From: an uncultured Oscillospiraceae bacterium
GTDB taxonomy: Bacteria; Bacillota; Clostridia; Oscillospirales; Oscillospiraceae
Assembly: GCA_947628185.1 (NCBI GenBank)
Contig: CANQYW010000011.1
Location: forward strand, 1-44,990
Reading direction: 5' to 3'
Length of the DNA stretch: 44,990 bases
The translations under genes and the position numbers were made by a program. Below are positions 3,799-15,986 of this stretch, one piece after another. Position 1 is the first letter of the stretch, and each line of letters starts with the position of its first letter. The notes beneath the pieces are model-generated. The model worked only from the letters and a program-made list of their open reading frames with translations, was not told where the DNA came from and did not search any database.

Positions 3799-3827
3799 AT
3801 TATACAATATAGAGCCGGTCATATCAA
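3799..3827 (-). promoter_or_regulatory. Promoter of hppA
   Basis: Read on the minus strand, TTGATA (3822-3827) and a perfect TATAAT (3799-3804) are separated by exactly 17 bp. The -35 box overlaps the last codons of the upstream pectinesterase gene, so hppA has its own promoter. A small GCGGC-TCC-GCCGC hairpin (3779-3791) lies in the leader. Confidence 0.8.
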
Positions 3828-4679
3828 GCTTTTTGTCCATTTTACCCGTCCTGGGACGGAGGGGGACTCGTAGAAACGGGCGGTGCGGTCCCGGTCCGTG
3901 TCGTTCCACTTATCAAACCCCAGGGGGGATATGTGGGGGCTGTACTGGCAGTCCACGAACTTCGCAAGGCCGTAGTCCCGCCAGGGGCGGGCGAGGTAGA
4001 TGGAGCCCTCCCCGACGCCTGGGGAACAGGTGAAACGGCAGCGGCGGAAGAGGAAACCCTCCTCGTCCTCCATGGGGTGGGCCGGCGCCGCGGCGTACCC
4101 GGTGCCGCGGGCGTCGGAGAGGGAGCGGATCTCGCAGTTTTCAAATACCGCCTCGCCGCAGCCGAAGATGAAGTCCACCGTGCCCTCGATGAGGCAGTTC
4201 TCGAACCGCTGGCGGCAGCGGACGTCCCGGCGGAGGATGTCCGGGAGAAAACCGTCATATCGCTCAATGAGGTCCCTGGGGAGGGGACCCAAAAAGAGAG
4301 TGTCCTGGGTGGAGGAGAGGCGGCAGCGCTCCATCTTGAAGTCGTCGCCGTAGACCGTGAGGGCCACCTCCTGCCCCAGTTTCTCGGGGGAGAGGGCGTC
4401 ATTTTCCACCGCGAGGTCCGTCATTGTCACCCCGTCCGCGCAGACTGCCAGGGTCCAGGTCCGAAAAGTGTTGTACTCCACACCCTTTTCGTCCAGTTTC
4501 TTGGCGTAGTCGCCCCACACTATCCGGGTCCTCTCCGCGCCGGCTCCGCGTATCGTGAGGCCCGGCACGGTGACCATGGACTTCACCCGGTACTCCCCGG
4601 GGGCCAGGATCAACTCCTCTCCGGGGGCGGCGGAGGAGAAGATCTCCCCCAAATCGTCACTATTTGTGATATTTTTCAT
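3819..4679 (-). CDS. Pectin methylesterase (CE8), cytoplasmic type
   Basis: A 286-residue pectinesterase, which removes methyl esters from galacturonate residues. The start at 4679 (MKNITN) is preferred over 4694 because ATGGAGG at the upstream Met is itself the ribosome site for the second one. Family motifs are in order: QEVALTV (103-109), QDTLF with catalytic Asp126, GTVDFIFG with catalytic Asp169, and ARPW with Arg231. About 20 extra residues separate the two catalytic Asp blocks compared with plant enzymes. There is no signal peptide, so it should act inside the cell on imported oligogalacturonides. It is divergent from the ABC importer locus starting at 5037, which supports a shared pathway. 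No terminator is evident between it and hppA. Confidence 0.88.
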   Translation of the reverse strand: MKNITNSDDLGEIFSSAAPGEELILAPGEYRVKSMVTVPGLTIRGAGAERTRIVWGDYAKKLDEKGVEYNTFRTWTLAVCADGVTMTDLAVENDALSPEKLGQEVALTVYGDDFKMERCRLSSTQDTLFLGPLPRDLIERYDGFLPDILRRDVRCRQRFENCLIEGTVDFIFGCGEAVFENCEIRSLSDARGTGYAAAPAHPMEDEEGFLFRRCRFTCSPGVGEGSIYLARPWRDYGLAKFVDCQYSPHISPLGFDKWNDTDRDRTARFYESPSVPGRVKWTKSLI

Positions 4680-5036
4680 GGGAAATACCTCCATTTTCGT
4701 ATTATCTCCATTATATACCTAATTTGGGAACATGCACATATCGGTGATACAGAAAATCTGTTTTGTTCATAAAATTGACGGTTTCGTCTATATACATAAA
4801 ATGCGCCATCATATATAATAAAAACCTAAGTAAATTGCATCATTCTGGTCATGTTGCACATACATGCCATCGTCAATTTGTATAAATCATCAAAGAGAGG
4901 GTCGAGCCCCTCATTTTTCACACCCCATACCGGGCGGCCGTTGCTGGAAATTCATGTGCTGGCGATTTTGACATGATTTTCGGATACATATTCTGGACGG
5001 CCCAAAAAGACATTACATATCTGATCAAGATGAGTT
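4680..5036. promoter_or_regulatory. Divergent regulatory region between pectinesterase and ABC locus
   Basis: A 357-bp AT-rich stretch with no gene. It holds a plausible plus-strand promoter, TTGACG (4775-4780) and TAAAAT (4797-4802) with 16 bp between, which would give a leader of about 230 nt. A 9-bp perfect inverted pair, AAATTGACG (4772-4780) and CGTCAATTT (4871-4879), lies around it. A short hairpin GAGGG/CCCTC (4897-4912) followed by ATTTTT could be an attenuator in that leader. Confidence 0.5.
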
Positions 5037-5606
5037 ATGATGAACAGACAGCGCACCTTCAAGGAATATAAGATCATAGACCTGGGCCTCTGGGCCATCA
5101 TCATGGCCATATTCGAGTTTCTGATAGTCATGGCCAGGAACTGGTGGTTCCCCACGGAGATATACACCGTCTCCCTGGAGGCGGCGGTGACGGCCATCGT
5201 CTTCATGCGGTGGGGGTTCTGGGGCGGCATACACGCCCTGGTGGGGGGATTTGTGTTCTGCACTTTCTCCCAGGGGAGCCGCGACCAATACATTATATAT
5301 TGTTTAGGCGACCTTCTCTCAATGGTCGCGGTATTCATGCTCAGGGGACTGGGCAAGGAGCGGGTGAGGCAGGATGTGCGTCTCACATTGCTCTTCGCTT
5401 TCTTAGTACAGTTCCTGATGCAGGCGGGGAGAGCGCTTGTGGCGCTGGCCTTCGGCAACGCGCCCGGTGTGGTGTTTGGATTTTTCACCACGGACAGCCT
5501 CTCCTACGTATTTACTCTTGTGATCATCTGGATAGCGCGAAAGCTGGACGGTGTCTATGAGGATCAAAAACATTACCTTCTGCGTCTAAACGCGCCGGAG
5601 GAATAA
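5037..5606 (+). CDS. Unrecognised integral membrane protein, first gene of the ABC locus
   Basis: I do not recognise this 189-residue protein. It has about five hydrophobic segments (roughly residues 16-32, 43-58, 60-75, 85-100, 112-135 and 148-167, some short), a basic loop GKERVRQDVR and a charged C-terminal tail. Its size and compact membrane pattern recall the S components of ECF vitamin transporters, but no signature residues support that. Start is 5037 or the adjacent ATG at 5040; the ribosome site is weak. It ends 15 bp before the first permease gene, which has a very strong ribosome site, so the two are cotranscribed. It is best seen as an accessory of the sugar importer. Confidence 0.7.
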   Translation: MMNRQRTFKEYKIIDLGLWAIIMAIFEFLIVMARNWWFPTEIYTVSLEAAVTAIVFMRWGFWGGIHALVGGFVFCTFSQGSRDQYIIYCLGDLLSMVAVFMLRGLGKERVRQDVRLTLLFAFLVQFLMQAGRALVALAFGNAPGVVFGFFTTDSLSYVFTLVIIWIARKLDGVYEDQKHYLLRLNAPEE

Positions 5607-5621
5607 AAAAGGAGGTAAAAA

Positions 5622-6677
5622 ATGAAAGTTAGGGCAGCGGATTTTCTCGATTACGATCAGGAAAGAGGCGTATATAGAGAAAATCCGGAACAGCTCGTCC
5701 GCGACGATGTGGAGAAGCACTACTGGCTCCATGTGGTCCGTGCGATCATCAAGGACTGGCGTCTATATCTGATGCTCGTCCCGATGCTCCTGGTCTTCCT
5801 GTTTTGGCGGTACCTGCCGATGTACGAGCTCCTGGGCTGCTTCAAGGTGGACAACAGCGTCTTGTCTGTCTCCGATCAGATGTTTTCCGGCTTCTCGTAT
5901 TTCAAACGTCTGCTCTTCGCGGGAGACTCCACTTCCACGGATTTCTGGAGGGCAATGCGCAACACCTTCATCACCAGCTTCTATGGACTGTGCTTCGGAT
6001 TCCCGATGCCCATCATCTTGGCCCTGTTCTTCAACGAGGTCAAGTCCAACGGAGCGAGGAGTGTGTATCAGGTACTCACCTATCTCCCCAAGTTCATGTC
6101 CACAGTCGTTATGACCTCGCTGGTGGCGATGCTCGTGAAGCAGGGCGCTGTCACCACCAACATGGGTATCGTGAGCCAGGCTCTCGTTAAGCTGGGCGTC
6201 ATACCCTACGAGGTAGGACAGGCGGGCCTCTTGAACAACCCCAAGTTCTTCAGGACGCTCTATCAGATCAGCGGCATCTGGGAGGGTGCCGGTTATGACA
6301 GCATCGTGTTCTTCGCGGCTATCATCGCCATCTCTCCCACCAGCTATGAGGCCGCTCAGATAGACGGCGCCAACAAGTGGGCCCAGATGAGGTACGTGGT
6401 GCTCCCCAGTATCCTCTCCACCATCGTCATCATGCTCATAACCCGCATAGGTTCGCTCCTGAACGTGGGCTATGAAAAGGTGATGCTGCTTTACAACACC
6501 AACACCTATGTGACGGCGGACGTGGTATCCACCTTCGCGAACCGCTACGGAATGAAAGGCGAGGCCCAAACGGGACTTGCCGCCGCGGCCGAGATGATGA
6601 ACAACGTGATCGGAATGCTCCTCGTCATCGGCTCCAACACCATCGCCCGTAAGGCAACGAATACGTCGCTTTATTAA
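5622..6677 (+). CDS. CUT1 sugar ABC transporter permease, LplB type
   Basis: A 351-residue membrane subunit. It has a hydrophilic N-terminal tail of about 45 residues, then six predicted helices beginning with LYLMLVPMLLVFLFW. The cytoplasmic EAA loop that docks on the ATPase is present at about residues 242-262 (EAAQIDGANKW). This resembles LplB/YteP permeases of Gram-positive bacteria, a group that imports complex oligosaccharides including pectin fragments and often borrows a shared MsmX ATPase. The start follows AAGGAGG at ideal spacing. It pairs with the permease that begins 12 bp after its stop. The adjacent divergent pectinesterase makes oligogalacturonides a reasonable substrate, by inference. 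Confidence 0.9.
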   Translation: MKVRAADFLDYDQERGVYRENPEQLVRDDVEKHYWLHVVRAIIKDWRLYLMLVPMLLVFLFWRYLPMYELLGCFKVDNSVLSVSDQMFSGFSYFKRLLFAGDSTSTDFWRAMRNTFITSFYGLCFGFPMPIILALFFNEVKSNGARSVYQVLTYLPKFMSTVVMTSLVAMLVKQGAVTTNMGIVSQALVKLGVIPYEVGQAGLLNNPKFFRTLYQISGIWEGAGYDSIVFFAAIIAISPTSYEAAQIDGANKWAQMRYVVLPSILSTIVIMLITRIGSLLNVGYEKVMLLYNTNTYVTADVVSTFANRYGMKGEAQTGLAAAAEMMNNVIGMLLVIGSNTIARKATNTSLY

Positions 6678-6689
6678 AAGGAGGGCGCC

Positions 6690-7580
6690 ATGAAAAGAAA
6701 GCTTGAAATTACCGAGCTGATCTTCAAGATCATAAGCTACACCCTGCTTACCATCTTCGCTCTCGCCTGCCTCTATCCCTTCGTGTACGCCGTGTCGGCG
6801 TCTATCTCCGGCAGGTCCCAGGTGGAGTACAACGAGATCATCCTCCTCCCCAAGAATGTGCAGTTCGAGGCCTTCTCCATGATGTTCAAGAACAACATGT
6901 TCTGGACCTCCTACTCCAACACCCTGTTCATAACCCTCTACGGTACCCTCTGGGCTATGTTCACGGCGATCTTGGGCGGCTACGCCCTCTCCAAGAAGAG
7001 GCTGCTCTTCCGGAAGTTCTTCAACTTCTTCCTGGTCTTCACCATGTGGTTCTCCGCCGGTATCGTCCCCCAGTACCTGAACTACTTGGCCACCCGCAAG
7101 GTGTTCAACTCGATAGGTATCATGGACGATAAGTGGCTGGTGGTCATAGCGATGGGCATGGCGGCCATGAACATCATCCTGCTGCGTAACGCCTTCGAGG
7201 GCGTCCCCTCCGAAGTCGAGGAGGCGGCCATCGTGGACGGCGCCACAGAGATGCAGGTCCTCAGCACCGTGTACATACCCATGAGCAAATCCACCATCGC
7301 CACCGTGGCGCTGTTCTTCGCCATCTCCCGTTGGAACGGCTACTTCTGGGCACGCCAGATGATGTCCAACCCCAACGAGCACCCGCTGCAGGTCTTCATA
7401 CGTCTCCAGTTGGAGAAGTACACCGACCCCGAGCAGGTGACAGGCTGGAACGAGGTTTTCGCCACCGACTCCGCCATCTACGCCCTCATCGTCTGCTCCA
7501 TCGTCCCCATCCTCATAATCTACCCCTTCATCCAGAAGTACTTCGCCAAGGGCGTGAACGTGGGCGGCGTCAAGGAGTAA
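6690..7580 (+). CDS. CUT1 sugar ABC transporter permease, YtcP/AraQ type
   Basis: A 296-residue partner permease with about six helices. The EAA loop is at roughly residues 170-195 (EVEEAAIVDGATEMQVL). The long conserved segment near NIILLRNAFEG just before it is typical of LplC/YtcP proteins, which form heterodimers with LplB proteins. An AGGAGG site sits just upstream of the ATG. Its position between the first permease and the binding lipoprotein is the usual order for this importer class. The C-terminus (FIQKYFAKGVNVGGVKE) matches the common ending of the family, so the gene is complete. Confidence 0.9.
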   Translation: MKRKLEITELIFKIISYTLLTIFALACLYPFVYAVSASISGRSQVEYNEIILLPKNVQFEAFSMMFKNNMFWTSYSNTLFITLYGTLWAMFTAILGGYALSKKRLLFRKFFNFFLVFTMWFSAGIVPQYLNYLATRKVFNSIGIMDDKWLVVIAMGMAAMNIILLRNAFEGVPSEVEEAAIVDGATEMQVLSTVYIPMSKSTIATVALFFAISRWNGYFWARQMMSNPNEHPLQVFIRLQLEKYTDPEQVTGWNEVFATDSAIYALIVCSIVPILIIYPFIQKYFAKGVNVGGVKE

Positions 7581-7618
7581 ACACGGCGGTCCATTCACCG
7601 GAAGTCTTTAAGTCAAAA

Positions 7619-7634
7619 TTCGGGGAGACCCGAA
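7619..7634 (+). promoter_or_regulatory. Leader hairpin before the binding-protein gene
   Basis: TTCGGG and CCCGAA form a perfect 6-bp stem closed by a GAGA tetraloop, 16 nt upstream of the AGGAGG site of the lipoprotein gene. There is no T-run, so it is not a terminator. It could protect the 5' end of a processed, abundant binding-protein mRNA. Confidence 0.45.
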
Positions 7635-7663
7635 CAAATAAAAATTTTAGGAGGATTAAATCT

Positions 7664-9934
7664 GTGAAAAAGATCCAGAAGTTGCTCGCCGTACTTTTGA
7701 CGGTAGCGCTCATCGCGGCCCTGGCCGTGGGTTGCGGACCCAAGATCCCGACCGATAACAGCAACCCCAACAATGGCAACAACAACAATAACAACAACAC
7801 CCCCAGCGACACGAACACCCCCAGCGACACGAACACCCCCAGCGACACCAACACCCCGGGCGACACCAATACCCCCAGCGACACCACCACTGAGACCGTC
7901 GCGGACCTCTACACCAAGGGTTCCGTGACCCTCCGCATGGCCACCGGCTACAACAAGATAAACACCGGTATCGCCTTCGACGCGGACACCATCTCCTCCA
8001 ACGACGCCAAGGACGGCAACGCTGACGGCGCACTGACCCTCGCCAACGGCCAGACCTACCATAACGGCGACCTCAAGCCCACCTGGCAGACCATGCAGGA
8101 GCGCCTTGGGATCACCTTCGAGAACAAGTTCACCGGCGCCGGCTCCGCCTCCAAGGAGTGGGACTACTGGAAAGAGCAGCTCGGTGAGGTCGACATGGTG
8201 GCCGGCGGCGCCGCTACCCTGTCCGCCGCTGGTGTGGCCGGCGACCTCGTAAACATCGCCGACTACCTCGACAAGATGCCCAACTTCAAGGCCTACCTCG
8301 ATGCCAACCCCATCGTCCGCATGTCCATCGTGGGCGACGTTGACACCGGCGCCATCTACTACAGCCCCTACTTCGACGGTTCCAACGATATCGAGCGTAT
8401 GCCCCTTATGCGTGTGGACTGGGTCGAGAAGCTCCTGAACGGCGAGGGTGAGTTCACCGCCACCGCCAGCAGCAAGACCGCCACCCCCGCTTACACCCCC
8501 TTTATGCCCACCTCCGGCAAGATCGAGATCGACGTCGTCAAGGCTGACGGCTCCGGCGTCGAGAAGGTCACAAAGGATTACGACACCGCCGGCAACATCG
8601 TCCAGAAGATGAACGACGCCGGCAGCATGGACGGCGTGGCCGCTGTCAACATGCTCCGTACATACATCGACGAGGCCTATGGCGGATACTACGGCACCAA
8701 CCGCGCCGACCTCTTCATCGGCCAGAACGCCGCTTGGGACGTGGATGAGCTGGTAGCTCTCCTCCGCTGCGTCGTCGCCAACCCCCAGACCCTCAACGGC
8801 ACCGATCAGATCTTCGGCCTCTTCTCCCGTGAGGACAGCAACATGCAGCGCAAGGTTGATATGTTCCGTCTCGCCGGCACCCTCTTCGGTGTCCGCGGCC
8901 TTGAGTCCCGCAAGGATTACCTCTATGTAGGCACCGACGGCTCCCTCTATGACGCCCGCCAGATGCCCGAGACCTACGACGCCATGGCCAAGATGCACGA
9001 CATGGCCACCGAGGGCCTCATCTCCAAGTCTTTCCTCGAGAACTCCGACGAGAAGACCGAGACCATGCTGGAGAACGACCTCGGCTTTATGCACTACGAC
9101 TACAACCAGACCCAGACCCTCTACAACGAGACCAAGCTCGACAAGGCTGCCGGCGAGAAGTACATGGCCGTTATGGTCCCTGTGTCCCGCTGGTATGACG
9201 GCACCAGCGACGAGGGCGTCTACATGCGTTTCACCGAGTCCTGGCGTTCTGTTAAGACCGACGCCTGGGCCATCTCCAAGGCCGGCGTCAACGGCGACGA
9301 CAACAAGCTCTACGCCGCCCTCGCCCTCATCGACTACGCCTACACCAAGGAGGGCCAGATACTCCTCTCCTACGGCCCCGATGAGTTCATCAAGCAGGAT
9401 GCCAACGGCAACTTCGTGACCTTCAACTTCAACGGTGAGCAGTGGCCTGAGATCGCCGACGCCACCCGTGAGGAGCTCTGGGCCCTCGCCAACGGCAACT
9501 ACACCAACTACGCCCGTTACTTCCTGGGCTCCACCCTCTCCTTCCTCAAGAGCCAGTCCTTCGAGTTCCAGTGCACCTCTGATGCCGGCCGCGAGGGCGC
9601 GGGCTACATCTCCAACGCCATCGGCCTTGGCACCATCAAGCACCCCGAGCTCGCCCTCACCGAGAACCCCTGGTACACCTCCGTCCTCACCACCCTGCCT
9701 CTTGACGAGGGCCAGACCAGCACCGTGAACAGCTTTGCGGAGCTGGGCAGCAAGGGCAAGTTCGGCACCTCTTCCGACACCGAGAACGTCCTCATCGACA
9801 TCATCATCAACGGCTACACCGATTCCAACCTCTCCAGCGCCGATGCCGCTGCCGCCTACGTTGCGGATGCTTGGAACGGCAAGGCTTACCTCCAGATCCA
9901 GAACGACGCCTGGGCTTATGCCAAGGGCGAGTGA
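7664..9934 (+). CDS. Sugar-binding lipoprotein of the ABC importer, LplA-like
   Basis: A 756-residue extracellular solute-binding protein, much longer than ordinary CUT1 binding proteins (about 420-560). The start is GTG at 7664 because AGGAGG (7650-7655) precedes it and the signal peptide begins there. A lipobox LAVGC gives a lipid-anchored Cys near residue 25. Then come an Asn-rich run and five copies of a TPSDTN-like hexapeptide, a flexible tether of about 45 residues that lifts the binding domain from the membrane. The late segment YTKEGQILLSYG is typical of LplA-type proteins. Codon use is strongly biased to C-ending codons, as expected for an abundant protein. Ligand is unknown; pectin-derived oligosaccharides are inferred from context. 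Confidence 0.88.
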   Translation: MKKIQKLLAVLLTVALIAALAVGCGPKIPTDNSNPNNGNNNNNNNTPSDTNTPSDTNTPSDTNTPGDTNTPSDTTTETVADLYTKGSVTLRMATGYNKINTGIAFDADTISSNDAKDGNADGALTLANGQTYHNGDLKPTWQTMQERLGITFENKFTGAGSASKEWDYWKEQLGEVDMVAGGAATLSAAGVAGDLVNIADYLDKMPNFKAYLDANPIVRMSIVGDVDTGAIYYSPYFDGSNDIERMPLMRVDWVEKLLNGEGEFTATASSKTATPAYTPFMPTSGKIEIDVVKADGSGVEKVTKDYDTAGNIVQKMNDAGSMDGVAAVNMLRTYIDEAYGGYYGTNRADLFIGQNAAWDVDELVALLRCVVANPQTLNGTDQIFGLFSREDSNMQRKVDMFRLAGTLFGVRGLESRKDYLYVGTDGSLYDARQMPETYDAMAKMHDMATEGLISKSFLENSDEKTETMLENDLGFMHYDYNQTQTLYNETKLDKAAGEKYMAVMVPVSRWYDGTSDEGVYMRFTESWRSVKTDAWAISKAGVNGDDNKLYAALALIDYAYTKEGQILLSYGPDEFIKQDANGNFVTFNFNGEQWPEIADATREELWALANGNYTNYARYFLGSTLSFLKSQSFEFQCTSDAGREGAGYISNAIGLGTIKHPELALTENPWYTSVLTTLPLDEGQTSTVNSFAELGSKGKFGTSSDTENVLIDIIINGYTDSNLSSADAAAAYVADAWNGKAYLQIQNDAWAYAKGE
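7796..7885 (+). repeat. 18-bp tandem repeat encoding the lipoprotein tether
   Basis: Five head-to-tail copies of an 18-nt unit (AACACCCCCAGCGACACG and close variants) encode NTPSDT repeated. The copies are nearly identical at the DNA level, so length variation by slippage between strains is likely. The fourth copy carries a Ser to Gly change. Confidence 0.9.
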
Positions 9935-10004
9935 GATCTAAGTAGATCATAAGCACAGAACGACTCAAATCGCGCTAAAAAATTTAACGGATTTGCCGCT
10001 CAGT

Positions 10005-10026
10005 CCCGCCGGGGACACCCGGCGGG
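10005..10026 (+). other. GC-rich intercistronic hairpin after the binding-protein gene
   Basis: CCCGCCGGG (10005-10013) and CCCGGCGGG (10018-10026) form a perfect 9-bp stem with a GACA loop. No T-run follows, so complete termination is unlikely. A hairpin at this place commonly protects the 3' end of binding-protein mRNA and lowers expression of the genes behind it. The rest of the 124-bp gap shows nothing but the AGAGGAGG site of the next gene. Confidence 0.65.
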
Positions 10027-10058
10027 GCGGCCGGCAACTTCCCTAAGAGGAGGTTGTC

Positions 10059-10691
10059 ATGTATAAAAAGCAACTAAAAGCTCAAAAGATAGTCTGCCTT
10101 GTTGCCCTCATTGTGACAGTCATTCTGTTCCTCTACGCCCTGGGGCTCTCCACGGACCTCTATGACGCCCTCTATCCCGCCATGAGGATAAGGGTGGAGG
10201 AGGACGCCAACTCCCCCGAGGGGTATACCATCACCGCCACGGAGCGTTCGGTCTCCGGCGCAATGGTCTACTACAATATCCAGGCGTTCAACAAGGTATT
10301 GGTAAACTACAGTATAGTTTACATCATCCTGGCGGCGCTGCTCTTTGTGACTAACACCAGCATCCGCAGGAAGTATTACATCAGCAACTATATCTCCATC
10401 GGTCTCTTCACTGTGGCGAGTTTCTACATCCCCATCTTTGCCCACAGCTACATAGAGATCTTCAAGGCCCAGTGGCTGAACGTGGACTTCGCGGCCCTAA
10501 AGGAGTTCTCCGAGACCTACAAGTCCACCTACACCGAGTCCACGCTCTGGTTTGACCTCCACTATGTGGTGTTCGCCCTCATGATAATCGCGGCGCTGCT
10601 GCTGGTGGCCTGCTGCGTGTGGAAGATCCTCCTCATGAAGGACGAGCGCAAGCTCGTTGAGGAAGGCAAAGGAAAGAAGGTGAAGGCATGA
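10059..10691 (+). CDS. Unrecognised four-TM membrane protein (ABC locus, module 1)
   Basis: A 210-residue protein I cannot assign. Four hydrophobic helices are visible at about residues 10-30, 76-98, 105-128 and 164-190. A loop of about 45 residues follows helix 1, and a basic turn (SIRRKYY) separates helices 2 and 3, putting that turn and the Lys-rich tail (KGKKVKA) in the cytoplasm. YYNIQ stands just before helix 2; the next protein has the same motif at the same place. The start follows AGAGGAGG. Its stop overlaps the next start by 4 bp (ATGA), so the two are translationally coupled. Location behind the binding-protein gene and before an ATPase gene suggests an accessory membrane subunit. 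Confidence 0.75.
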   Translation: MYKKQLKAQKIVCLVALIVTVILFLYALGLSTDLYDALYPAMRIRVEEDANSPEGYTITATERSVSGAMVYYNIQAFNKVLVNYSIVYIILAALLFVTNTSIRRKYYISNYISIGLFTVASFYIPIFAHSYIEIFKAQWLNVDFAALKEFSETYKSTYTESTLWFDLHYVVFALMIIAALLLVACCVWKILLMKDERKLVEEGKGKKVKA

Positions 10692-11188
10692 GCAAGGTCA
10701 GCACACCCGAGGATAAGCTTATCGCCCGCGACAGAATGAGGTTCGTCAAGAACTCCGCCTGCGCGAACCTGTGCTATCTCGGACTCCTCTTTGACGTCTT
10801 CTACTTCGTGCTCATCTACCGCCAGGACGTGGGGCAGTACTACTACAATATCCAGATAGGCGCCTCAGTAGTCTATAACCTTATATTCATGCTGGCGGTG
10901 TTTCTCGCCTCCGAGGCGGTCAAGAACTACAAGAAGAACTACTCCATGATCCTCATTGTGGCGGGCGTCATGCAGGTAGTGAGGGTGTTCGTCATCCCCA
11001 CCGCCGCCCACGGCGCCACCACGCTGGTGAACGGTGTCGATACGCCCGTCATGGGCGACAGCACCTACACCCTGGCTCTTGTCTACCTCCTGGTCTCCGC
11101 CGCGGCGCTCATCTTCTCCGCCGTGCTCAACTACATCAGATGCACCGAGCTCGAGGCTCACCTCAAGACCCTCGAGAACAAGGCATAA
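10688..11188 (+). CDS. Unrecognised four-TM membrane protein (ABC locus, module 1)
   Basis: A 166-residue protein of unknown function. Four helices are visible at about residues 24-45, 57-77, 84-103 and 125-147. A charged N-terminal tail (EDKLIARDRMRF), a basic turn (KNYKKNY) between helices 2 and 3, and a C-terminal acidic/basic tail that could form a short coil suggest both ends are cytoplasmic. YYYNIQ precedes helix 2, as in the preceding protein, hinting at distant paralogy. It overlaps the previous gene by 4 bp and ends 12 bp before the ATPase gene, so the three belong to one translational block. Confidence 0.75.
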   Translation: MSKVSTPEDKLIARDRMRFVKNSACANLCYLGLLFDVFYFVLIYRQDVGQYYYNIQIGASVVYNLIFMLAVFLASEAVKNYKKNYSMILIVAGVMQVVRVFVIPTAAHGATTLVNGVDTPVMGDSTYTLALVYLLVSAAALIFSAVLNYIRCTELEAHLKTLENKA

Positions 11189-11200
11189 GGGGGTGAAGTC

Positions 11201-12274
11201 ATGGCTCAGTTGAATCTTCAGCATATCGATAAGATATACGACAATAAAGTTCAGGCGGTCTTTGACTTCAACCTCGACGTCAAGGACGGCGAGCTCATAG
11301 TCCTGGTAGGTCCCTCCGGCTGCGGAAAGTCCACCACCCTACGCATGGTGGCGGGCCTTGAGGATATCTCCAACGGCAAGCTCCTTCTGGACGGCCGTGA
11401 CATCACCCAGACCCCCGCGAAGGACCGCGACATGGCCATGGTGTTCCAGAGCTACGCCCTCTACGGCCACATGACCATCTATGAGAACATGGCCTTCTCC
11501 ATGACCCTCCGCAAGGAGGACCCCAACGTCATCCACAAGAAGGTCCTGGCCGCAGCCGAGATCCTCGGCCTCACGAGCCAGCTCAACAAGAAACCGGCCC
11601 AGCTCTCCGGCGGCCAGCGCCAGCGCGTGGCCATGGGCCGTTCCATCGTGCGTAACCCCAAGGTCTTCCTCTTTGACGAGCCCCTCTCGAACCTGGACGC
11701 CAAGCTCCGCGGAGCCACCAGGCGCGAGATACTGCTCCTCCACAAGAGGCTCCAGGCCACAATGCTCTACGTCACCCACGACCAGACCGAGGCACTGACG
11801 CTGGCCGACAGGATCGTCTGCATGTCCATGGGCCACGTCCAGCAGGTGGGCACGCCGCTTGAACTCTACGACTCCCCCAACAACGTCTTCGTGGCCAGTT
11901 TCATAGGTCTGCCGCCCATGAACTTCTACGACGTGAAGGTCTCCGGCAACGAACTCGTTGGCGAGGGCATAAAGCTCGCCCTCACCCCGGAGGAGAAGGC
12001 GACTCTCGCCGCCTATCAGGGCCGTGAGATCACCTTGGGCGTCCGCCCCGAGAACTTCACCGAGGGCCGGGACATCTCTGTGACCGTCACCAACAACGAG
12101 AACCTGGGTATGAACACCCTGGTCTACGGCCACGTGGGCAACACGGGCGTCAGAGTCACCGCCAAGCTCAAGGGCTGGAAGAACTACAAGGTGGGCGACA
12201 CCGCCTCCTTCGCCGTGCTGAGAAAGCACTTCTTCGACAAGGAGACAACAAACGCGATAAGGGGGGATAAGTGA
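11201..12274 (+). CDS. MsmX/UgpC-type ABC transporter ATPase 1
   Basis: A 357-residue nucleotide-binding subunit that powers CUT1 sugar importers. All motifs are intact: Walker A GPSGCGKSTT near residue 36, Q-loop MVFQSYALY near 84, signature LSGGQRQRVAMG near 132, Walker B VFLFDEPLSNLD near 158, and the switch His in THDQTEA near 193. Beyond residue 235 lies the OB-fold regulatory domain of MalK-like proteins. ALYGHMT replaces the usual ALYPHMT in the Q-loop. The start follows AGGGGGTG. The stop overlaps the next start (TGATG). This locus encodes its own ATPases although LplB-type importers usually share a distant one. Confidence 0.92.
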   Translation: MAQLNLQHIDKIYDNKVQAVFDFNLDVKDGELIVLVGPSGCGKSTTLRMVAGLEDISNGKLLLDGRDITQTPAKDRDMAMVFQSYALYGHMTIYENMAFSMTLRKEDPNVIHKKVLAAAEILGLTSQLNKKPAQLSGGQRQRVAMGRSIVRNPKVFLFDEPLSNLDAKLRGATRREILLLHKRLQATMLYVTHDQTEALTLADRIVCMSMGHVQQVGTPLELYDSPNNVFVASFIGLPPMNFYDVKVSGNELVGEGIKLALTPEEKATLAAYQGREITLGVRPENFTEGRDISVTVTNNENLGMNTLVYGHVGNTGVRVTAKLKGWKNYKVGDTASFAVLRKHFFDKETTNAIRGDK

Positions 12275-12876
12275 TGGCAAACAACAAATCAACTACTAAG
12301 ACCGCTCCCGCCAAGGCGAAGAAGGGGTTCGGTTACGTCTGCAAGGACGCGCTGCGTAAGTTCATCGTCAGCCTCAAGAGGCGCCCCCAGCGCATCCCCC
12401 TGGTGGTGTTTGTGATAGCCTTCATAATCTACTCCTTCCACCTCTCCGACGTCTCCGATACCACCGCCCAGCTCCAGGGGAGCAACATGGGCCTCGCCGG
12501 TTTCGCGGTGATGCTCCTCTCCATGCTCTCGCTGCTGTGCTTTAACAACGCCTTCCCCTACCGCAAGAAGGTGAATGTGCCGATGCTTGTTTTGTGCTTT
12601 GTGATGGTGGGCATAATAGTCTTTGCCGATGTCTACTACCTTGGCAGGATAGACGCCGCCCTCAATTCCTCCGGAAGCAACATCGACCTTGTTAAGAACA
12701 GTTTCATCATCTATGCTCAGTGGTACATCCAGCAGCACATCATCTGGCTCGCGGTTGGCACCGTGCTCACCGCCCTGTTGCCGGTGTACTCCAAGCTCCT
12801 CAGGAAGATCAACACTAACGTCGAGGTGGCCGGGAATGCCGAGATGGGCACTCTTGACCTCTCCGCCGACGCCTGA
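12274..12876 (+). CDS. Unrecognised four-TM membrane protein (ABC locus, module 2)
   Basis: A 200-residue protein of unknown function. A Lys/Ala-rich cytoplasmic N-terminus (residues 1-40) precedes four helices at about 42-58, 73-92, 102-123 and 153-173. A basic turn (FPYRKKVN) lies between helices 2 and 3, the same topology as the two proteins of module 1. The loop between helices 3 and 4 is about 30 residues. The ATG at 12274 is preferred to the GTG at 12271 because of spacing from GGGGGG. It overlaps the ATPase stop by one base, indicating coupling. A GC-rich hairpin follows. Confidence 0.72.
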   Translation: MANNKSTTKTAPAKAKKGFGYVCKDALRKFIVSLKRRPQRIPLVVFVIAFIIYSFHLSDVSDTTAQLQGSNMGLAGFAVMLLSMLSLLCFNNAFPYRKKVNVPMLVLCFVMVGIIVFADVYYLGRIDAALNSSGSNIDLVKNSFIIYAQWYIQQHIIWLAVGTVLTALLPVYSKLLRKINTNVEVAGNAEMGTLDLSADA

Positions 12877-12896
12877 GGCATCCCATTTACAGCATA

Positions 12897-12921
12897 GGGA
12901 GGCCCACGTCCTGGGCCTCCC
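12897..12921 (+). other. GC-rich intercistronic hairpin
   Basis: GGGAGGCCCA (12897-12906) and TGGGCCTCCC (12912-12921) form a perfect 10-bp stem with a 5-nt loop between two membrane-protein genes. No T-run follows. It may stabilise or separate transcript segments rather than end transcription. Confidence 0.65.
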
Positions 12922-12942
12922 GCCATTGAGGACAGGATCGCT

Positions 12943-13581
12943 ATGGCAAAAAAGAAAGGCAACGGGCATGAGGAGAAGGAGATACTCCAGCAGTCCGACT
13001 ACTACAAGCTGAAGACCAAGGCCGTTGACGACCTTGTGACGGCTAATAAGGATAACTCGCCCAAGGTGAGCGAGGAGGAGCTCCGCAAGTACCGTTCGGG
13101 CTCGAAACTCAGGATCGCGGACTGGGTCAAGATGTGTTTCATCAAGTTCTGGTTCGTGGCGGCGGTGTGCTTTTTCTTCATGTGGGGACTCAGCGCCTAC
13201 ATGGCCGATATGCTCGACACGCTCTTTGTCACTGGCATCGCCTTAGGGGTCGTGACGGATATCCTCACGAACAACGCCCTCAGGTTCTTCGCCAAGACGC
13301 CCGGCGGCAACGACCGCTGGATGATGTTCCCCAAAAAGGGCTACTACAGTTTCCCCCTGAACATCCTCTATGCGTTTCTCGTGCTCTTCTGCGTGTTCCT
13401 GACCTACTCAGTTTTGAACCGCGCTCTCATCGAGCTGACCCACGCGCCGGCGGACAGCATCCCCCTGGGCGTGGAGCCGATATTGTTCGGATTATTTTAT
13501 CTCGGTTTTGATCTGCTCCTGATCAAGATGAAACACCTGGCGCTTGAGATCTACCGCGACGCCCGGAAACCCTCCAGGTGA
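12943..13581 (+). CDS. Unrecognised membrane protein (ABC locus, module 2)
   Basis: A 212-residue protein I cannot assign. The first 60 residues are hydrophilic and strongly charged. Hydrophobic segments follow at about 66-88, 95-110, 140-162 and 175-197, and a Lys/Arg-rich tail closes the protein. The loop after the second segment (AKTPGGNDRWMMFPKKGYYSF) is likely cytoplasmic. It is the second protein of a pair in front of an ATPase gene, repeating the arrangement of 10059-12274. The start at 12943 has only a modest AGGA site. The gap of 91 bp to the next start contains no clear promoter. Confidence 0.72.
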   Translation: MAKKKGNGHEEKEILQQSDYYKLKTKAVDDLVTANKDNSPKVSEEELRKYRSGSKLRIADWVKMCFIKFWFVAAVCFFFMWGLSAYMADMLDTLFVTGIALGVVTDILTNNALRFFAKTPGGNDRWMMFPKKGYYSFPLNILYAFLVLFCVFLTYSVLNRALIELTHAPADSIPLGVEPILFGLFYLGFDLLLIKMKHLALEIYRDARKPSR

Positions 13582-13672
13582 CGGCAGTATATTTAAATCA
13601 CGGGCGCCCGGGGTTTCGCGAACTGAACTCTTGGCACAAGCTTCGAATACATGTGTAAGGAGACAGAAAAGT

Positions 13673-14776
13673 ATGTCATATCTGAGCCTCAAAAACATCA
13701 ACAAAATTTACCCAAACGGCTATCACGCCGTCCACGACTTCAACCTGGACATCGAGAAGGGTGAGTTCATCGTTTTCGTGGGCCCCTCCGGCTGCGGAAA
13801 GTCCACCACCCTGCGCATGGTTGCGGGTCTTGAGGACATCTCCAACGGCGACTTCCTCATCAACGGCCAGCGGGCCAACGAGTGGGGTCCCCGCGAGCGC
13901 GAGATAGCCATGGTTTTCCAGAGCTACGCCCTCTATCCCCAGATGACCGTCTTTGACAACATCGCCTTCGGCCTCACGCTCCAGGGCGTTGACGAGGACG
14001 TCATAAAGGAGAAGGTGGAGCACACCGCCAAGATCCTGGGACTCACGGACTACCTTGACCGTTTCCCCAGGGCCCTCTCCGGCGGCCAGCGGCAGCGCGT
14101 GGCCATAGGCCGCGCCATCATCCGCAAGGTGGGCGTGTTCCTGATGGACGAGCCGCTCTCGAACCTGGACGCCAAGCAGCGCGTCACCATGCGTTCCGAG
14201 ATAGCCCAGATCCACCGCTCCACCGGCGCCACCACCATCTACGTCACCCACGACCAGACCGAGGCCATGACCCTGGCCGACAGGATAGTCGTCATGAAGG
14301 ACGGTTACGTCCAGCAGATAGGCACCCCCTATGACCTGTACATGGAGCCGGTGAACGTCTTCGTGGCCGGGTTCATCGGTGAGCCCCCCATGAACTTCAT
14401 CCGGGGCAAGCTCAAGGGCGGCAAGGTGACATTCGGCAAGAACACCATGGACGTCACGGACCTCCTGGGCAAGGACGCCAAGAAGTACGAGGGCAAGGAG
14501 ATCGTCTTCGGGTTCCGTCCCGAGGGCATCGTCCTGGGCTCCGCCGCCGGCGGATACCACGTCAAGGCCGCCGTGGAGCTCACCGAGATGCTGGGCGACA
14601 ACACGAACGTCTACATAACGGCCGAGGACGACAAGGCCATACTCAAGGTGGACCCCCACGACGAGCCCGATGTGGACACCGAGATCGAGTTCACCATCCC
14701 CTACGAGAACGTGTACCTCTTCGACGGCGAGACCGAGAAGGTCATCAAGACCACCAAGGCCCACGCCGCGAAATGA
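13673..14776 (+). CDS. MsmX/UgpC-type ABC transporter ATPase 2
   Basis: A 367-residue MalK-like ATPase. Start at 13673 (MSYLSLKNI) follows AAGGAG; the open frame runs 43 codons further upstream but those residues are unlike the family. Motifs are intact: Walker A GPSGCGKSTT near residue 37, Q-loop FQSYALYPQMT near 85, signature LSGGQRQRVAIG near 133, Walker B VFLMDEPLSNLD near 158, switch His in THDQTEAM, and a C-terminal OB-type regulatory domain. It is closer to canonical MsmX than ATPase 1. Two complete ATPases in one importer locus suggests either a heterodimeric engine or two assemblies. It is the last gene before a strong terminator. Confidence 0.92.
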   Translation: MSYLSLKNINKIYPNGYHAVHDFNLDIEKGEFIVFVGPSGCGKSTTLRMVAGLEDISNGDFLINGQRANEWGPREREIAMVFQSYALYPQMTVFDNIAFGLTLQGVDEDVIKEKVEHTAKILGLTDYLDRFPRALSGGQRQRVAIGRAIIRKVGVFLMDEPLSNLDAKQRVTMRSEIAQIHRSTGATTIYVTHDQTEAMTLADRIVVMKDGYVQQIGTPYDLYMEPVNVFVAGFIGEPPMNFIRGKLKGGKVTFGKNTMDVTDLLGKDAKKYEGKEIVFGFRPEGIVLGSAAGGYHVKAAVELTEMLGDNTNVYITAEDDKAILKVDPHDEPDVDTEIEFTIPYENVYLFDGETEKVIKTTKAHAAK

Positions 14777-14841: not shown

Positions 14842-15894
14842 TTATATATCCTCCCGCATGAAGGAACTGTAGGAGAGGACGTCCGCCAGCTCCGTGAGGA
14901 ACACCTCCAGGGGATCGGTGTCCGAGATGGCGGTGGAGTAGTCGTTGAAGGACAGGGGGTGCGGGGTGCTGGGGAGGAACACGAGCATTCGGGTGCCGGT
15001 GTTCGTCACCGAGGCCACCACGTTCCCGTCGTACATGGCGGCTATCCGCTGCACAACCGGGAGGCCCAGGCCAACGCCGGCCTCCGGGTCCTTGATGTCG
15101 TACCCCTGCTTAAAGCGGGTGAACATGGGGCGGGAGGCGCCGCCGCCGTCGGACACCTCTATCATGGAACCGTCGTGCCAGGGGTAGACGTTCAGCGTTA
15201 TCTTGCCGCCGTGCTCGGAGAACTTTATGGAGTTGGAGACGAGATTCAGCACCATGCGCTCTATTAGCTGCTGGTCGCCGGTGAAGAGGCAGTCGGAGAC
15301 CTGGGGGGAGCAGACGAGCTCTACTCCGGTGCCCGCCAGGAGGTAGTTTGCCGTGACGGCCACGTCCGTGAGGAGCGTCACGAGGTCCAGGAGCTGGTCG
15401 TTTCTGTGGATCTTGTCGCCGAAGAGGAGGCTGTAGTTGCTCACCACCCGGGAGAGGGAGTGGAGGGACTTGCTGACCCGCGCCAGGTTCTCGTCGGCGG
15501 CGTGGACCCGCAGTTTCTGGAGTTTCATCTTGATGACCGCGAGCCCGGCGGTGGAGACGCCCAGCTGCGTGTTGAGATGGGGACAGAGCGCCGAGAGGTC
15601 GCGGCTGGCGCTGTCCTCCGGGGGGAAACTCACCGTTATTATCCTGAGCGCCCCGAGAGTCACCGCCGCCGCGGGCAGGAACTCATTACCCCGGCGCACA
15701 CTGCCGTAGACGATGTCCCCGGGGGTGTCCAGCAGCAGGGGGTCGAACCGGTCAAGAGCCTTGGCGTCCTGGAGCCGGCCGCCGAATAGATTTTCCGCCG
15801 AGGTGTTCGCGTATATGATTTTTCCGTTGCCGGCGGCGATGACCGCCTCGTCCAGCGTGTCAAAGAGCTTTGCGATCGAACTATTGAGTTTCAT
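14842..15894 (-). CDS. Soluble PAS-like sensor histidine kinase
   Basis: A 350-residue kinase with no membrane segment. Residues 1-75 look like a PAS fold (FDTLDEAVIAAGNGKIIYAN). A probable phospho-acceptor His106 lies in CPHLNTQLG, a variant H-box. The ATPase domain is clear: N-box LNLVSNSIKFSEHGG (Asn217 to Asn221 region), G1 box SDGGG near 248-252 and G2 box GVGLGL near 273-278. A tail of about 40 residues follows. Start at 15894 (MKLNSS) is preferred because GGGG lies 8 nt upstream; the longer frame to 15954 has no ribosome site. No response regulator lies next to it, so the partner is elsewhere. Cytoplasmic signals such as redox or metabolites are possible inputs. Confidence 0.85.
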   Translation of the reverse strand: MKLNSSIAKLFDTLDEAVIAAGNGKIIYANTSAENLFGGRLQDAKALDRFDPLLLDTPGDIVYGSVRRGNEFLPAAAVTLGALRIITVSFPPEDSASRDLSALCPHLNTQLGVSTAGLAVIKMKLQKLRVHAADENLARVSKSLHSLSRVVSNYSLLFGDKIHRNDQLLDLVTLLTDVAVTANYLLAGTGVELVCSPQVSDCLFTGDQQLIERMVLNLVSNSIKFSEHGGKITLNVYPWHDGSMIEVSDGGGASRPMFTRFKQGYDIKDPEAGVGLGLPVVQRIAAMYDGNVVASVTNTGTRMLVFLPSTPHPLSFNDYSTAISDTDPLEVFLTELADVLSYSSFMREDI

Positions 15895-15986
15895 AGGCAG
15901 CACCCCATTATGTGTCTGAGAGTTAGCTTTCCACGGATTTGCCCGAAAAAACATGGAGGATCTGGCGAAATGCCATTATATTTGTA

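Follow-up and report, generated by a model that had tools for sequence, protein, structure and literature searches.

A conserved ten-gene importer locus with two ATPases and five additional membrane proteins beside a pectinesterase gene

Introduction

Type I sugar importers are described as being built from a pair of permeases, a pair of ATPases and a binding protein. On contig CANQYW010000011.1 of an uncultured Oscillospiraceae bacterium (assembly GCA_947628185.1), an ATP-binding cassette (ABC) importer locus was found to encode two permeases, a solute-binding lipoprotein and two different ATPases together with five further membrane proteins, which we have designated A, B, C, D and E. The 44,990 nucleotides that were analysed (positions 1 to 44,990 of the forward strand) are referred to as the window. 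The locus raises the question of what this importer carries and whether the five further proteins are part of it. We found that the ten genes, with the pectinesterase gene adjoining them, are one conserved unit, that its carriers are some gut bacteria of plant-eating animals, and that the five additional membrane proteins are kept with the type I core in every locus covering their place. We read the locus as a dedicated importer of pectic oligo-uronides with extra membrane subunits, a reading to which we give a probability of roughly 0.7.

Genetic organisation of the locus

The importer genes lie on one strand in the order A, P1, P2, lipoprotein, B, C, ATPase 1, D, E and ATPase 2:

3819..4694, minus strand: pectinesterase (PF01095, E 6.6e-29), divergent from the importer genes
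5037..5606, plus strand: A, membrane protein with a predicted energy-coupling factor (ECF) S-component fold; no Pfam or NCBIfam match above cut-off
5622..6677, plus strand: P1, permease of the AlgM1/LplB type (PDB AlgM1, E 3.5e-63; PF00528)
6690..7580, plus strand: P2, permease of the AlgM2 type (PDB AlgM2, E 7e-73; PF00528)
7664..9934, plus strand: solute-binding lipoprotein (weak PDB matches to AlgQ1/AlgQ2), with a probable GTG start behind an AGGAGG ribosome site
10059..10691, plus strand: B, four-helix membrane protein of an unnamed family (AlphaFold2 model, pLDDT 93.0, pTM 0.84)
10688..11188, plus strand: C, membrane protein of an unnamed family with four predicted helices; bait for the 80 loci described below
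11201..12274, plus strand: ATPase 1, UgpC/MsmX type with intact motifs (MsmX, 2.6e-103; AlgS, 3.1e-96)
12274..12876, plus strand: D, membrane protein of an unnamed family with four predicted helices; GTG at 12271 is an alternative start
12943..13581, plus strand: E, membrane protein of an unnamed family with a conserved cytoplasmic N-terminal part (homologue in a paralogous importer, E 4e-12)
13673..14776, plus strand: ATPase 2, UgpC type with intact motifs (NF008653, 448.6 bits, cut-off 432)

All of the genes that the original prediction, made from the sequence alone, had placed here were present. The two overlaps it had pointed out were present as well: C starts at 10688 and B ends at 10691 (ATGA), and the ATG of D at 12274 overlaps the end of ATPase 1 at 12274 (TGATG). 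The lipobox of the lipoprotein (7664-9934) is followed by an asparagine run and a repeated TPSDTN-like linker. A PAS/HATPase protein encoded at 14842-15954 of the window converges on ATPase 2.

Conservation of the ten genes

A scan of the genome collection with C as bait returned 239 relatives of C, the best 80 of which were taken as loci. Every record among these best 80 of 239 was labelled metagenome-assembled or uncultured, and the labels included Oscillospiraceae, Lachnospiraceae, Butyricicoccus, Gemmiger, Christensenellaceae, Solobacterium and others. When one profile per gene was run over the 80 loci, all ten genes were found in identical order in 57, and the genes found in the remaining 23 formed an unbroken run that stopped at the end of the locus. 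At most 294 bases remained on the open side in 22 of these 23 incomplete loci; in L098, 3405 bases remained after E, the usual gap between E and ATPase 2 having a median of 3544. The lipoprotein was detected in 78 of the 80 loci. Each gene was found whenever both of its neighbours were found: A in 57/57 loci (those with the pectinesterase and P1), P1 in 61/61, P2 in 65/65, the lipoprotein in 68/68, B in 78/78, ATPase 1 in 76/76, D in 76/76 and E in 72/72. The corresponding figure for C (78/78) holds by construction, C being the bait. The co-occurrence of two private ATPases with accessory membrane proteins, which the original prediction had taken from a single sequence, was thus seen in the loci examined.

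The spacing of the genes was also kept in these relatives. B and C overlapped by 4 bases in 59 of 80 pairs, the gap between C and ATPase 1 was 12 bases in 52 of 77, and the spacing between ATPase 1 and D lay between -4 and +3 in 59 of 73; A is spaced tightly to P1. In one locus (L095:9377-10489), B and C were naturally fused into a single frame (295.9 and 268.9 bits), the sole case among the loci.

At the level of the family, C was detected in 6 of 120 genomes, and at that of the order in 7 of 295; among 398 genomes sampled over the phylum it was detected in 1, which was the bacterium's own genome. B was detected in 3 of 291 genomes of the class, and E in 7 of 391, 3 of these being weak hits. 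The weak matches of E in G1145, G479 and G625 were judged to be chance, as no such locus surrounded them. Because the loci had been selected by C, a reverse test starting from P1 was needed. P1 with at least 70% identity was found in 7 of the 295 order genomes, and these were the same 7 that carried C; no relative of the importer devoid of B to E was found among these close orthologues. Eight loci of other LplB-type importers (L181-L188), whose P1 homologues showed about 41% identity or less, yielded no match to A, B, C, D or E at E 0.01 in any frame of at least 70 residues.

An eighth order genome, G231, encoded a P1 of 59% identity in a diverged form of the locus on two contigs (L179, G231:C31, and L200, G231:C91), the middle part lying outside the sequence seen. 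One short contig carried ATPase 2, A, P1 and P2, with ATPase 2 adjoining A, and the second carried D and E together with a GH28 relative that was 58% identical across 505 residues. The ATPase of G231 grouped in the ATPase 2 clade.

The permease core and the two ATPases

The PDB matches of P1 and P2 (listed above) were to AlgM1 and AlgM2 respectively. The lipoprotein had no Pfam match and aligned over parts of its length with AlgQ1/AlgQ2 in the PDB (E 1.4e-4 to 2e-3).

The best matches of both ATPases were UgpC/MalK importer ATPases, and the MalK OB domain (OB_MalK) was above the Pfam cut-off in both. Against NF008653, ATPase 1 scored 430.6 bits, just below the cut-off that ATPase 2 exceeded. 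Motif residues were 98-100% conserved in ATPase 1 (79 sequences), one Q-loop position excepted, and 92-100% conserved in ATPase 2 (66 sequences). The two proteins were about half identical. In the ATPase trees, built after the exclusion of 13 rows, ATPase 1 and ATPase 2 formed separate clades (support 100/100 and 100/99), both distinct from the remaining MalK-like ATPases of the relatives. The two clades were joined in one tree at 85/52, and the other trees gave no supported sister relation. We lean towards an unequal pair of ATPase 1 and ATPase 2. The original prediction had offered a second export machine as one explanation of the two ATPases; we rejected it because both proteins have the OB_MalK domain and their best matches are of the UgpC/MalK importer type.

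The pectin context and the probable substrate

A pectinesterase gene was found in 57 of the 61 loci with A, in divergent orientation in 55 of these 57; in L065 and L093 it lay on the importer strand. This setting of pectin use had been missed by the original prediction. The genes lying between E and ATPase 2, or close by, were surveyed in 83 loci, each cluster being named from one representative. The families included GH28 (57), GH88/105 (49), KduI (28), SDR (13) and GH4 (7), and AraC regulators and esterases were also present. The nearby GH28, GH88/105, KduI and SDR genes point to the use of galacturonan.

Export signals were judged by hydropathy only. An N-terminal hydrophobic segment was present in 67 of 70 lipoproteins and was lacking in 57 of 59 pectinesterases, 55 of 55 GH28 proteins and 47 of 47 GH88/105 proteins. 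The pectinesterase of the window showed no export signal and probably demethylates in the cytoplasm. A pectinesterase and a polygalacturonase that would both be cytoplasmic suggest that methylated chains are imported before they are digested. The imported substrate is likely to be an oligogalacturonide, and methylated fragments probably enter intact.

The membrane proteins B, C, D and E

The original prediction had been unable to assign B to E to a family, and this was borne out. None of A to E matched anything above the Pfam or NCBIfam cut-offs, and profile searches of PDB sequences with the five proteins gave nothing below E 0.088. Pfam scans of 48 homologues of B, 51 of C, 46 of D and 55 of E revealed scattered weak matches and no consistent family; those in single or few members were to MreD (1/55 of E), DUF2569 (3/48 of B) and ATG22 (4/46 of D).

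Averaged hydropathy gave four membrane segments for B, C and D; their ends were basic, as was the turn joining helices 2 and 3, in agreement with the shared layout described in the original prediction. E also had four segments, preceded by a long basic N-terminal part. Profile-profile comparison gave a probability of at most 8% between different members of A to E. Going by these profiles, the similarity of B, C and D is a repeat of layout and not demonstrated descent. The string YYNIQ, to which attention had been drawn in B and C, is present in both proteins of the window; its Q is invariant in B alone and is not conserved in C, and the string was therefore rejected as a common motif and regarded as coincidence. 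A claudin/TARP-like tetraspan fold was considered for B from its predicted structure and is not claimed. We consider it probable that B, C, D and E are physical members of the importer.

Protein A

A had been described in the original prediction as a membrane protein of no assignable family. The absence of a family match stood, as a Pfam scan of 42 homologues gave scattered weak matches in few members only; the predicted ECF S-component fold had been missed. No link of A to S-components was found at the sequence level in Pfam or in PDB sequences. PMC11109136 describes an AxxxA-like motif in S-components as docking to EcfT, and gives transporters, sensor kinases/receptors and MreD as places where the S-component fold is known. 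Positions 20 and 24 of helix 1 of A held small residues in 50 of 63 sequences and a strict AxxxA in 28 of 63, a pattern that may correspond to this docking motif. CbiQ of Pfam was not matched by A to E or their homologues and no recognised EcfT was found in the locus; all 10 of the locus-bearing genomes that were searched encoded an EcfT homologue outside it. Among the matches listed in literature searches, none joined an S-component fold with binding-protein importers or oligosaccharides. The odds that A is a physical member of the importer seem to us slightly better than even.

A paralogous importer

The genome G077, which carries the main locus (L011), also encodes a paralogous importer, L180 (G077:C4:53500-73000). 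It comprises P1 (48% identity), P2, a lipoprotein, B-like and C-like genes, one ATPase and D-like and E-like genes; neither A nor a second ATPase was found within 19.5 kb. With 295 other open frames as decoys, the B-like gene scored 17.3 bits (best decoy 5.9), the C-like gene 15.0 (4.0) and the E-like gene, a homologue of E (E 4e-12), 40.1 (3.6). The ATPase of L180 has a long branch, is nearest to the "other" ATPases and was assigned to neither the ATPase 1 nor the ATPase 2 clade. The neighbours of L180 are heparinase II/III-like, alginate-lyase-like, DUF4962, cupin and SDR genes and an IclR regulator. Forms of B, C and E are thus present, together with an ATPase, outside the pectin locus as well, and A and ATPase 2 make up a separable second set.

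Proposed mechanism and alternative explanations

In the mechanism that we propose, the lipoprotein would capture oligogalacturonides, probably still methyl-esterified, and P1 and P2, as an AlgM1/AlgM2-type pair, would carry them across the membrane. The two ATPases are intact and conserved in the locus, and would most likely act as an unequal pair on P1-P2. B, C, D and E would be accessory membrane subunits around the permeases and may broaden or stabilise the passage taken by long chains, and A would be a further membrane subunit, by which substrate is held beside the channel or sensed. The chains would then be broken down inside the cell by the pectinesterase, GH28, GH88/105, KduI and SDR enzymes. 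The reading as a pectic oligo-uronide importer draws on the co-occurrence and order of the ten genes in the 80 loci, the joint presence of P1 and C in 7 of 295 genomes, the tight B-C and ATPase 1-D spacing with one natural fusion, the AlgM1/AlgM2-related core, and the pectin-enzyme neighbours, whose enzymes mostly lack export signals; the S-component fold predicted for A, the diverged form in G231 and the L180 paralogue also argue for it. The sequences themselves establish which genes are present, how they are ordered and spaced, that they co-occur, to which family the core belongs and that the ATPase motifs are intact; the folds of A and B are predictions, and the substrate, digestion in the cytoplasm, the ATPase heterodimer and the contacts and roles of A to E belong to the proposal.

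Several points weigh against this reading. The match of the lipoprotein to AlgQ is weak. There is no hydrolase between E and ATPase 2 in the window, and the KduI, GH28 and GH88/105 genes of the same genome lie at the start of another contig (L190, G000:C30:30-3138), away from the importer. ATPase 1 and ATPase 2 could each homodimerise, and a third MalK-like ATPase is encoded elsewhere in the genome. L180 has a single ATPase in its locus, and its D-like gene, which has no significant similarity to D, was assigned by position alone. Contact of A to E with the permeases is something we infer, and one operon could hold separate machines.

This last point leads to an explanation by two machines in one operon: an importer made up of P1, P2, the lipoprotein and one of the ATPases, and a second transporter, or a sensor complex, in which B to E work with the remaining ATPase or with A. 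The position of ATPase 1, tightly embedded between C and D, would fit such a division, as would that of ATPase 2, which lies apart and adjoins A in G231, and the S-component fold is known also from receptors and MreD (PMC11109136). However, the single ATPase of L180 would have to serve both machines, and no consistent permease-family match was found for B to E. We regard two machines as unlikely.

Also unlikely, to a similar degree, is that A serves as a conventional ECF S-component for some small nutrient, using the shared ECF module of the genome and only riding in the operon. The EcfT homologues outside the locus and the small residues at helix 1 positions 20 and 24 are as this explanation would have them, yet A was present in all 57 loci with the pectinesterase and P1, is tightly spaced to P1 and is retained in G231 beside P1, P2 and ATPase 2.

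A module duplication, put forward in the original prediction, would make B, C and ATPase 1 one half and D, E and ATPase 2 the other. It would account for the like layout of B, C and D and for ATPases that are about half identical, but is very improbable given profiles of B to E that show no mutual similarity, ATPases in separate clades joined at low support in one tree, and an L180 that has C-like and E homologues with one ATPase.

The preferred reading, as a pectic oligo-uronide importer, has a more specific form, a hybrid ABC importer. Its binding-protein-dependent type I core would be in physical association with an S-component-fold subunit and with four membrane subunits of unnamed families, an unequal ATPase pair would drive it, and the assembly would be a conduit for long methylated pectin chains taken whole. 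We offer this tentatively, the odds being somewhat against it.

Comparison with known systems

DUF624/YesL-type small membrane proteins adjoin LplB-type importers in Bacillus pectin operons; DUF624 was not listed among the Pfam matches of A to E or their homologues. The substrate of the Alg system is a uronate chain. Among characterised systems, the closest are this alginate importer and YtcQP-YteP/MsmX of Bacillus subtilis. The alginate importer AlgM1-AlgM2-AlgS-AlgQ (PDB 4tqu and others) matches the present locus in its permeases and ATPase, and weakly in its lipoprotein, whereas the present locus has a second, different ATPase and five membrane proteins in addition. ECF transporters are alike in the predicted fold of A. 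Unlike them, the locus encodes MalK-type ATPases and a solute-binding lipoprotein and has no recognised EcfT.

In the Gram-positive Bacillus subtilis, YtcQP-YteP imports galacturonic acid oligomers and most probably draws its energy from MsmX, a multitask ATPase (PMC5730181); the oligomers are likely to be a substrate in common with the present locus. That system is described there as a solute-binding protein and two permeases, with no accessory membrane proteins in the passages of PMC5730181 concerned, whereas the present locus has five extra membrane proteins and two private ATPases. Among the matches listed in our literature searches there was no report of the ten-gene set. If the five proteins are subunits, the uptake of long charged chains by importers becomes testable, and four unassigned membrane families of herbivore gut bacteria would gain a role.

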